Shown here piece by piece: positions 2,087 to 4,551 of a DNA stretch of 11,144 nucleotides. Position numbers and translations under genes: made by a program. This stretch comes from Amylibacter sp. Lineage in GTDB: Bacteria > Pseudomonadota > Alphaproteobacteria > Rhodobacterales > Rhodobacteraceae. How positions within the stretch are numbered: position 1 is the first letter of the stretch; each line of letters begins with the position of its first letter. The notes under the pieces were generated by a model. That model did no database searches. It was not told the origin of the DNA and was given only the letters and a program-made list of their open reading frames with translations. The stretch lies in contig DAOUQS010000042.1 in the NCBI GenBank assembly GCA_030625465.1, positions 1 through 11,144 of the forward strand, written 5' to 3'.

Positions 2087-3100
2087 ATGTCAAAAATACT
2101 ACAAAAAATCATCGATAAACAAGGGTTTGTCTTGGCCGATGGGGCCACAGGCACCAACCTGTTTAACATGGGGCTTATGGCGGGGGACGCGCCTGAAATG
2201 TGGAATGTGGAACATCCCGAACGTATCACCAAGCTTTATCAAGGTGCGGTTGATGCCGGTTCTGATCTGTTTCTGACCAATAGTTTCGGTGGCAACGCAT
2301 CTCGCCTGAAGCTGCATAACGCGCAGGACCGCGCCCGCGAGCTGTCCCGTATTTCCGCCGAACTTGGCCGTGAAGTTGCCGATAAGTGCGACCGCGACAT
2401 CGTCGTGGCCGGCTCTGTTGGCCCCACGGGCGAGATTATGGGCAAGGTGGGCACATTGACCCACGAAGTTGCCGTCGAGATTTTTGAAGAACAGGCCCAC
2501 GGACTGTTGGAAGGTGGCGCGGATGTTTTGTGGGTGGAAACTTTTTCCGCCCCCGAAGAATACGCCGCCGCTGCTGAAGCCATGCGCAATGTCGGAGCTG
2601 ACTGGTGTGGCACCATGAGTTTTGATACCGCAGGGCGCACCATGATGGGGCTTACATCAACCAACATGGTCAAAATGGTCAGCGATCTGGACTATCCGCC
2701 GTTCGCATACGGTGCCAATTGCGGCGTTGGCGCATCGGACTTGCTGCGCACGGTTCTTGGGTTCTCCGAAACCGGCAACCCCAAACCGATTATCGCCAAA
2801 GGTAACGCCGGCATTCCGAAATATGTGGATGGCCACATCCATTACGACGGCACCCCCGATTTGATGGCGCAATACGCGATCTTGGCCCGCAACTCTGGCG
2901 CTACCATCATCGGCGGCTGCTGCGGGACGATGCCTGAACATTTGACCGCGATGCGAACCGCGCTGGACAGCACCCCGAAGGGTGAAAAACCGTCCCACGC
3001 ACAAATCACCGCCGTACTGGGTGCATTCTCATCCGATAATGACGGAACAGGGGACGCACCGGTGAAACCGCCACGCCGTAACCGCCGCCGTGGTGGATAA
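2087..3100 (+). CDS. Homocysteine S-methyltransferase (zinc domain of split methionine synthase; often annotated as betaine-homocysteine methyltransferase)
   Basis: Transfers a methyl group to homocysteine to give methionine. The protein is a Pfam S-methyl_trans barrel. The N-terminal DGATGTNLFNMGL and the middle ETFSAPEEYAAA are family hallmarks. The zinc-binding cysteines are present as GANCGVG (Cys212) and GGCCGT (Cys278, Cys279), numbered from the ATG at 2087. That start is preferred over the ATG at 2066 because AGGA (2076-2079) lies seven bases before it, while the upstream ATG has no clear ribosome site; the longer form would add seven residues. The C-terminus ends in a very basic tail (PPRRNRRRGG) beyond the barrel. 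The adjacent corrinoid protein and DUF1638 genes suggest that the methyl donor is methylcobalamin, as in MetH, rather than betaine. This is inference from context; the sequence alone does not settle the donor. Confidence 0.9.
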   Translation: MSKILQKIIDKQGFVLADGATGTNLFNMGLMAGDAPEMWNVEHPERITKLYQGAVDAGSDLFLTNSFGGNASRLKLHNAQDRARELSRISAELGREVADKCDRDIVVAGSVGPTGEIMGKVGTLTHEVAVEIFEEQAHGLLEGGADVLWVETFSAPEEYAAAAEAMRNVGADWCGTMSFDTAGRTMMGLTSTNMVKMVSDLDYPPFAYGANCGVGASDLLRTVLGFSETGNPKPIIAKGNAGIPKYVDGHIHYDGTPDLMAQYAILARNSGATIIGGCCGTMPEHLTAMRTALDSTPKGEKPSHAQITAVLGAFSSDNDGTGDAPVKPPRRNRRRGG

Positions 3101-3141
3101 GGTCGTTGTACTGATTTTTAATGTCGTAAAATGCCAAGAAA

Positions 3142-3182
3142 AAGCCCTCTGAAAAGATGAAGACTGTTTGAATAGAAGGCTT
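3142..3182 (+). other. Possible intercistronic hairpin
   Basis: AAGCC-C-TCT (3142-3150) can pair with AGA-A-GGCTT (3174-3182), leaving one C/A mismatch and a loop of 23 bases. It sits between the methyltransferase and corrinoid genes, just before the ribosome site AAGGA (3191-3195). There is no T-tract, so it is not a convincing terminator. It might tune expression or mRNA processing between the two genes. Confidence 0.25.
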
Positions 3183-3202
3183 CAAAAATAAAGGAATCAC
3201 CG

Positions 3203-3904
3203 ATGTCCGAAGAACTAGATGATATCATCCTGTCAGAACTTTCTGATGACGAGCTGGTGTTGCAGATGCATGATGATCTTTATGATGGTATGAAACCAGA
3301 GATCGAAGAGGCTGTTAACATCCTTCTGGAACGCAAATGGATGCCCTATGACATCCTGACGAAGGCCTTGGTCGAAGGTATGCGCGTTGTCGGTATTGAT
3401 TTTCGCGATGGCATCTTGTTTGTGCCCGAAGTGCTACTGGCCGCCAACGCCATGAAGGGTGGCATGTTCATCCTGAAACCATTGCTGGCCGAAACCGGTG
3501 CGCCGCGTCTGGGCAACATGCTGATCGGCACGGTCAAGGGCGACATCCACGACATCGGTAAAAATCTTGTAACCATGATGATGGAAGGGGCGGGCTTTGA
3601 AGTGAACGACCTTGGCATCAACAATCCGGTCGAAAACTATCTGGATGAACTTGACGATGGCGAATACGACATCCTTGGCATGTCGGCCCTGCTGACCACA
3701 ACCATGCCCTATATGAAGGTCGTGATTGATACCATGGTCGAAAAAGGCATGCGCGATGACTACATCGTGCTTGTGGGTGGCGCACCCCTGAACGAAGAGT
3801 TCGGCAAAGCTATCGGTGCAGACGCGTATTGCCGTGATGCCGCTGTCGCGGTGGAAACCGCAAAAGACTATATGGCTAAAAAACACAACCAGATGAGCGC
3901 TTAA
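3203..3904 (+). CDS. Corrinoid (cobalamin)-binding methyltransferase subunit, MtbC/MetH B12-domain type
   Basis: Carries cobalamin and shuttles a methyl group between partner methyltransferases. The 233 residues match the two-part layout of this family. A helical cap domain lies at about residues 10-95 (DLYDGMKPEIEEAVN...VPEVLLAANAMK), followed by a Rossmann-like B12-binding domain at about 104-230. The base-off/His-on motif DxHxxG is intact (Asp114, His116, Gly119 in DIHDIGKN). The two other family markers follow at the expected distances: SAL (161-163) and GG (192-193). AAGGA at 3191-3195 supports the ATG. The stop overlaps the next start by one base (TAATG at 3902-3906), so translational coupling to the DUF1638 gene is likely. 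With the homocysteine methyltransferase 102 bases upstream, it most likely forms the B12 component of a split methionine synthase. Use in methylamine or other one-carbon metabolism is an alternative. Confidence 0.93.
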   Translation: MSEELDDIILSELSDDELVLQMHDDLYDGMKPEIEEAVNILLERKWMPYDILTKALVEGMRVVGIDFRDGILFVPEVLLAANAMKGGMFILKPLLAETGAPRLGNMLIGTVKGDIHDIGKNLVTMMMEGAGFEVNDLGINNPVENYLDELDDGEYDILGMSALLTTTMPYMKVVIDTMVEKGMRDDYIVLVGGAPLNEEFGKAIGADAYCRDAAVAVETAKDYMAKKHNQMSA

Positions 3905-4551
3905 TGCGCATTGGCGTCGATGATAACACATTGACTGAAAAAGGTTTAAACGCGCCCAAGGGAAAACCCGGGCGCGTTTTGCTTTTGGCGTGTGGTGCCT
4001 TGGCGCATGAGATACTGGCCCTGAAACGCCTGAACAACTGGGACCATATGGACCTGCAATGCCTGCCGGCAAATTACCACCTATACCCCGATAAAATCCC
4101 CAAAGCGGTTGAACAGGCAGTGCTGAAACACCGCGACAATTACCAAACCATCTTCGTGGTCTACGCTGATTGCGGCACAGGCGGGCTGTTGCAAGCCAAA
4201 TGCGCTGAACTGGGCGTCGAAATGGTTGCAGGCCCGCATTGTTACAGCTTTTTCGAGGGCAATGACACATTCGCCAAAACCTCGGAAGATGAAATCACTG
4301 CGTTTTACCTGACCGACTTTTTGGTCAAACAGTTCGACGCTTTCGTGATCAAACCCATGGGGCTGGATCGCCATCCCGAATTGCGCGACATGTATTTCGG
4401 CAATTACACCAAAGTGATCTATCAGGCGCAGGTCAACGACCCCGCATTGGACGCCAAAGCACAGGAATGCGCCGATAAACTGGGCCTGCCGCTGGAACGG
4501 CGGTTTACCGGGTACGGCGATTTGGAAACAACACTTGAAACCATCACTTGA
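3904..4551 (+). CDS. DUF1638 protein coupled to the corrinoid protein
   Basis: A 215-residue cytoplasmic protein of the DUF1638 family, recognised from RVLLLACGALAHEIL, the central YADCGTGGLL and GPHCYSFFEGN. There is no signal peptide or membrane segment. Several cysteines lie in the best-conserved-looking blocks: Cys30 (LLACGA), Cys53 (LQCLPA), Cys90 (YADCGT), Cys100 and Cys113 next to His112. This pattern could bind a metal, an iron-sulfur cluster or a corrinoid, but I cannot tell which. Its start codon overlaps the corrinoid gene's stop, so the two proteins are probably made together. Family members are repeatedly found beside corrinoid methyltransferase genes, and I recall genetic evidence from roseobacters linking the family to B12-dependent methionine synthesis. 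A helper role such as cobalamin loading or reactivation is inferred, not demonstrated by this sequence. Confidence 0.85.
   Translation: MRIGVDDNTLTEKGLNAPKGKPGRVLLLACGALAHEILALKRLNNWDHMDLQCLPANYHLYPDKIPKAVEQAVLKHRDNYQTIFVVYADCGTGGLLQAKCAELGVEMVAGPHCYSFFEGNDTFAKTSEDEITAFYLTDFLVKQFDAFVIKPMGLDRHPELRDMYFGNYTKVIYQAQVNDPALDAKAQECADKLGLPLERRFTGYGDLETTLETIT

Follow-up and report, generated by a model that had tools for sequence, protein, structure and literature searches.

We are highly confident that three neighbouring genes on contig DAOUQS010000042.1 of Amylibacter sp. (GenBank assembly GCA_030625465.1; positions 1 to 11,144 of the contig are called the window below) encode MtgE, MtgC and a DUF1638 helper of the B12-dependent methionine synthase that roseobacters split into separate proteins, an arrangement already published for relatives. 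The source is a metagenome assembly of an uncultured marine roseobacter, comprising 2.27 Mb in 439 contigs and estimated to be 83.7% complete. The parts of the locus, all on the forward strand, are as follows:

2087 to 3100 (alternative start 2066), forward strand: mtgE-type homocysteine methyltransferase module, matching PF02574 (198 bits) and NCBIfam PRK07534 (558 bits)
3101 to 3202, forward strand: spacer with the element TGTCG[CT]A[AT] at 3122-3129, which recurs upstream of mtgC in other loci
3203 to 3904, forward strand: mtgC-type stand-alone cobalamin-binding protein, with a cap and a Rossmann domain (PF02607, PF02310) and a DIHDIG motif
3904 to 4551, forward strand: DUF1638 gene whose translation is coupled to that of mtgC; its product scores 119 bits with PF07796 (cut-off 27)

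A first-pass annotation, made from the sequence alone, had described a zinc-type methyltransferase, a B12 protein with DxHxxG and a coupled DUF1638 gene in this order. The open reading frames, domains and motifs bear this out, as does the TAATG in which the DUF1638 start codon overlaps the stop codon of mtgC. The same annotation had read the genes as pieces of a split methionine synthase, which matches the genetics of Phaeobacter and Ruegeria. In Phaeobacter inhibens separate proteins carry the homocysteine, pterin and cobalamin parts; all of them matter for growth in defined medium, methionine rescues the mutants, and the same methionine phenotype is seen for a RamA-like protein and for DUF1638 (Price 2018, PMC5764234). 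In Ruegeria pomeroyi the parts were named MtgE, MtgD and MtgC; MtgC and MtgD have a second role in demethylating glycine betaine, and mtgC and mtgD mutants require methionine (Mausz 2025, PMC12478193). By analogy, mtgE, mtgC and the DUF1638 gene would have the same function in the organism studied here. Consistently, PF02965, the reactivation domain of single-chain MetH, was found in none of 25 genus genomes, namely 24 relatives and the incomplete genome under study.

Gene order was compared in 80 loci containing MtgC, which are the best 80 of 591 confirmed stretches and hence come from close relatives. In 77 of them a DUF1638 gene comes after mtgC in the same orientation, and in 56 mtgE comes before it, again on the same strand, so the mtgE-mtgC-DUF1638 neighbourhood is not a matter of chance. 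Three loci have no DUF1638 after mtgC: L159 ends just past mtgC, and L151 and L168 give no match. A radical SAM protein match, counted irrespective of position and strand, occurs within 51 of the 80 loci; in the three that were read (L102, L124 and L127) the gene separates mtgE from mtgC and points the other way, and in the one scanned it belongs to the PA0069 family. The compact form found here, with no radical SAM gene and a spacer shorter than 350 bases, is shared by 11 of the 80, one of which is L151, the locus mentioned above for its missing DUF1638. Since the radical SAM gene of Phaeobacter, c13360, has no phenotype according to Price 2018 (PMC5764234), its absence looks neutral by analogy. 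With the split enzyme itself already known, the main contribution of the locus is a compact arrangement in an Amylibacter-like lineage.

The mtgE gene has two candidate ATG codons, at 2066 and 2087 (residues 1 and 8); an AGGA stands just upstream of the latter, and the alignment starts of relatives favour neither. Its product is a stand-alone PF02574 protein in which, numbering from 2066, Cys219 within GANC and Cys285-Cys286 within GGCC are all intact and are presumably the zinc ligands. The two motifs align with NCSLG and GGCCGT of the solved MetH structure 1q7m. Orthologues with 65-90% identity occur in 22 of the 24 genus relatives, while G006 has the gene in pieces (70-81% identity) and G019 a weak fragment only. 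In another relative, G012, mtgE stands alone, with no mtgC beside it (mtgC was not searched genome-wide). A second, distant MtgE homologue, possibly an S-methylmethionine-type enzyme, is present in 18 of the 24 relatives at 24-28% identity, mostly with a length of about 295 residues (examples are G002:C3:36670-37521 and G016:C4:571758-572603).

Automated annotation gives MtgE another name: NCBIfam PRK07534, 'betaine--homocysteine S-methyltransferase', has a cut-off of 338 bits, which the protein exceeds widely. Taken at face value, this would make the mtgE product a true betaine-homocysteine methyltransferase (BHMT) that forms methionine directly from betaine, leaving the corrinoid protein only for another demethylation pathway. 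We consider this very improbable. Among solved structures, MtgE matches MetH modules with up to 129 bits and BHMT with at most 51, and is hence not closer to BHMT than to MetH; moreover, mtgE precedes mtgC on the same strand in the 56 loci counted above. According to Price 2018, mutants of the P. inhibens orthologue share their methionine phenotype with mutants of the corrinoid protein, and Mausz 2025 (PMC12478193) state that the betaine-binding residues are lost in MtgE homologues and likewise argue against the label. The finding on MtgE thus speaks against the name, which is probably wrong, because solved MetH modules match far better than BHMT and Mausz 2025 argue in the same direction. The doubt that the first-pass annotation had voiced about this label is upheld in part by the structural comparison, although the exceeded PRK07534 cut-off still counts on the other side.

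MtgC is a stand-alone cobalamin protein whose cap is followed by an intact DxHxxG motif (DIHDIG at residues 114-119), with 1y80 as its solved relative (169 bits). The element in the spacer before it begins 81 bases upstream of the mtgC ATG. Within 150 bases upstream of mtgC, TGTCG[CT]A[AT] was found in 42 of 66 non-rhizobial loci, in 2 of 14 rhizobial-type loci (a class that we assigned ourselves) and in 4 of 370 control segments; as it was chosen from the spacers of the same loci, this count is no independent test of enrichment. Stricter or shifted versions performed worse. The recurrence suggests that mtgC may have its own promoter, with the element as a putative promoter or regulator site, and this would agree with the different responses of MtgC and MtgE to betaine reported for Ruegeria in Mausz 2025 (PMC12478193).

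The pterin protein and the activase had been expected elsewhere in the genome by the first-pass annotation, and in the genus this is where they are. Each of the 24 relatives has RamA and an mtgD-like gene, the PF00809 match with the lower score being counted as the latter; in 21 of these they lie on one contig, 2.2-5.8 kb apart, and in the remaining three, whose assemblies are fragmented, the two genes fall on separate contigs. Two loci were scanned in detail: in both, mtgD scored above the PRK07535 cut-off and ramA carried RACo domains. The expectation did not hold for the assembly under study, which at its 83.7% completeness yielded neither.

Several points weigh against our interpretation. 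The first is this absence: the 83.7%-complete assembly contains no detectable RamA and no PF00809 protein at all, hence neither mtgD nor folP (dihydropteroate synthase). The second is that other enzymes might also make methionine, namely the distant MtgE homologues of the 18 relatives and the PF01717 (core-MetE-like) genes that some genus relatives have. The third concerns the DUF1638 helper, which was matched in 22 of the 24 relatives and in neither G012 (98% complete) nor G019 (81%), and which may therefore be dispensable. RamA and mtgD are present in both of these genomes. As to the first point, because mtgD and ramA share a contig in 21 of the 24 relatives, one unassembled stretch could explain why neither MtgD nor RamA was found. 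A loss of the two from the organism is not supported, and the lack of any PF00809 protein most likely reflects incompleteness of the assembly.

The second point bears on a further explanation, that the locus serves mainly to demethylate glycine betaine or other quaternary amines and that methionine comes from another enzyme. Two PF06253 (MtgB family) genes in the genome, with 758 and 365 bits, would suit such a role, as would the sharing of MtgC between both pathways in R. pomeroyi (Mausz 2025) and the distant MtgE homologues of the relatives. However, mtgE adjoins mtgC here, PF02965 was not found in the genus sample, and the R. pomeroyi mtgC and mtgD mutants need methionine according to the same source, so that we give this explanation very little credence. 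The first-pass annotation had also proposed a genome-wide search for metH and metE; in the incomplete genome under study neither PF02965 nor PF01717 (MetE) was found.

With the split methionine synthase in mind, one may picture the following cycle. MtgD, encoded elsewhere, would load the methyl group of methyl-tetrahydrofolate onto the cob(I)alamin of MtgC, and MtgE would move it from MtgC to zinc-bound homocysteine. After each oxidation of the cobalamin to Co(II), Co(I) would be restored by RamA, whose gene lies near mtgD in relatives, together with DUF1638, the latter perhaps acting through a metal or iron-sulphur (Fe-S) site made up of Cys30, His59, Cys90 and Cys113 while docked to the corrinoid protein. 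MtgC could in addition accept methyl groups from MtgB-type demethylases, for which the two PF06253 proteins are candidates. The earlier statement that the reactivation parts are missing from the locus was accordingly half right: RamA is found neither in the locus nor in the assembly, but DUF1638 is itself one of the two genes linked to reactivation (PMC5764234).

What is new here is the cysteine and histidine pattern of DUF1638 and the existence of a second type of this protein, and the point worth pursuing is its chemistry. Price 2018 (PMC5764234) makes no specific proposal for the function of DUF1638, and in the passage of PMC12542648 that names DUF1638, the Sinorhizobium protein is a table entry only. 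The association with RamA is nearly perfect. Among 398 Pseudomonadota genomes, RamA occurs in 52 and full-length DUF1638 in 52, with both in 51; RamA without DUF1638 is seen in G230, full-length DUF1638 without RamA in the incomplete genome under study, and weak DUF1638 matches alone in five further genomes. The Fisher p value for co-occurrence is about 3e-62, or 2e-56 when the weak matches are counted, in a test that ignores phylogeny. The same association was reported for 158 Alphaproteobacteria (Price 2018, PMC5764234). At L280, G230 combines RamA with distant MtgC-like and MtgD-like genes, and DUF1638 is not matched anywhere in its genome, so that this corrinoid system does without it. G011 carries extra divergent DUF1638 and RamA genes on contigs C208 and C273, with a pterin-type gene nearby on C208 and a URO-D gene nearby on C273; one relative, under the name Anaerolineae, is 83% identical to the DUF1638 protein of C273, which is perhaps a contamination.

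In an alignment of 70 DUF1638 sequences reaching down to 17-20% identity, invariance is confined to Cys30, Glu36, Pro62, Cys90 and Cys113; 69 sequences have His59 (the exception is P0143) and 53 have Cys53. Across 136 distinct sequences, the three cysteines are invariant wherever they are covered (128 or 129 stand-alone and 6 or 7 second-type sequences) and His59 is found in 128 of 128 stand-alone proteins, whereas Glu36 is replaced by Asp in one stand-alone and one second-type sequence and Pro62 varies. In a structural model with a mean predicted local distance difference test score of 92.5 and a predicted template modelling score of 0.81, Cys30 is the last residue of the strand 25-30, His59 belongs to a short helix that follows the strand 49-54, Cys90 is in the loop after the strand 82-86, and Cys113 comes just before the helix 115-118. 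From the secondary structure of this model, the four residues would gather on one edge of an alpha/beta sheet. Profile-profile comparison showed no similarity to nitrogenase-like proteins (PF00148): hhalign gave a probability of 0.2% with one form of the profile and 0.3% with another, and 98.9% in a control of close against divergent DUF1638 rows.

The second type was met as weak DUF1638 matches at seven loci (L207-L213); two of the genomes carry such a match in addition to a full-length DUF1638. Where the open reading frames are complete, these matches are the N-terminal domains of longer proteins. HisKA and HATPase_c domains follow in four of the seven (L208-L211); in L207 HATPase_c was matched and HisKA was not, and L212 and L213 run into a contig end too early to show a kinase part. 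The PF07796 score exceeds its cut-off of 27 in six of the seven, barely so in L211 (27.2), and just under it in L210 (26.1). The HxxP of the stand-alone protein reads CxxP in all seven loci and in all six database relatives (P0139-P0144), a swap of His59 for Cys that depends on aligning the proline, since the hidden Markov model alignment puts the Cys one column off His59. Precomputed annotation gives kinase domains together with PF07796 for five of these six relatives and PF07796 alone for P0143; when we scanned P0144 ourselves, the kinase domains were recovered and PF07796, at an E value of 0.001, was not. In all six loci with upstream sequence, a B12-binding protein and a URO-D family methyltransferase stand upstream of the second type (L211 starts at a contig end, so that its upstream genes are out of view). 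The rows of corrinoid protein, URO-D methyltransferase and DUF1638-domain protein extend as follows:

L207, 3057 to 6580
L208, 296 to 3900
L209, 2945 to 6861
L210, 2728 to 6259
L212, 2209 to 4731
L213, 2559 to 4878

A response regulator comes after the DUF1638 kinase in L208 and L209, and it is possible, judging from domains and gene order, that such rows encode a two-component system that reads a corrinoid protein. In the L215 lineage the order is RACo, corrinoid protein, URO-D and then a stand-alone DUF1638.

DUF1638 thus accompanies corrinoid proteins both as a helper and as the input of a kinase, and because of this we infer a putative module that docks to corrinoid proteins and bears a metal or Fe-S site. 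One may speculate further, as a tentative idea that we would not put at even chances, that the site consists of Cys30, His59 (or Cys), Cys90 and Cys113; that the stand-alone protein passes electrons between RamA and the Co(II) of MtgC or reads the state of the cobalt; and that the kinase-fused form, found in a Magnetococcales bacterium among others, acts as a sensor of a corrinoid protein, reporting its methylation or redox state. A pattern of three cysteines and one histidine suits zinc as well as iron-sulphur, and one divergent DUF1638 copy lies near a CobW-type gene (L015). Both would fit a chaperone, structural or for handling cobalamin, whose zinc site would serve structure alone and have no redox role, an explanation that is compatible with the split methionine synthase and that we regard as rather unlikely, since the near-perfect co-occurrence with RamA and the use as kinase input beside corrinoid proteins both fit a redox or state-reading role better. 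If the kinase speculation is true, a sensory system that reads a corrinoid protein exists; no publication on a DUF1638 kinase or on such a system was found, as judged mostly from titles and the openings of abstracts. The Cys/His pattern, the His-to-Cys swap and the kinase fusions make the function of DUF1638 accessible to work on purified proteins.

Elsewhere in the window, a ribonuclease D gene (cut by the window edge) and SufE lie upstream of the three-gene locus and MntH downstream. A short secreted-looking protein is encoded at 6044-6655 on the reverse strand; its C-terminal stretch, PLPASGLLLFGALGGFGFLRRKRK, looks by eye like a sorting signal of the PEP-CTERM/VPLPA type.

Of the known systems, that of P. 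inhibens (PGA1_c13370, c13350 and c16040, with the RamA-like c15200 and the DUF1638 gene c13340; Price 2018, PMC5764234) is similar in that its three genes are close together and, by locus-tag numbers, in the same order, and the same set of families is expected in the genome studied here. It differs by its radical SAM gene c13360, which by number lies between mtgE and mtgC where the present locus has only a spacer of 102 bases; a further difference is the overlap of the DUF1638 start with the mtgC stop here. With the MtgBCDE system of R. pomeroyi (PMC12478193) the locus and its genome share MtgC and MtgE homologues, PF06253 genes and a DUF1638 gene near mtgC. There, however, the locus-tag numbers place mtgE (SPO1884) a long way from mtgC (SPO2160), whereas here it is directly upstream. 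The MtgC proteins of anaerobes are homologous corrinoid proteins, but the present one stays far below the cut-offs of their models (179.5 bits against 370 for NF047996 and 162.5 against 310 for NF047995). Mammalian BHMT has in common with MtgE an alignable PF02574-type fold and the NCBI label, with a similarity much weaker than that of MetH modules. Single-chain MetH has homologous homocysteine and cobalamin modules; in the split enzyme these are separate proteins, and reactivation would fall to RamA and DUF1638 in place of PF02965.

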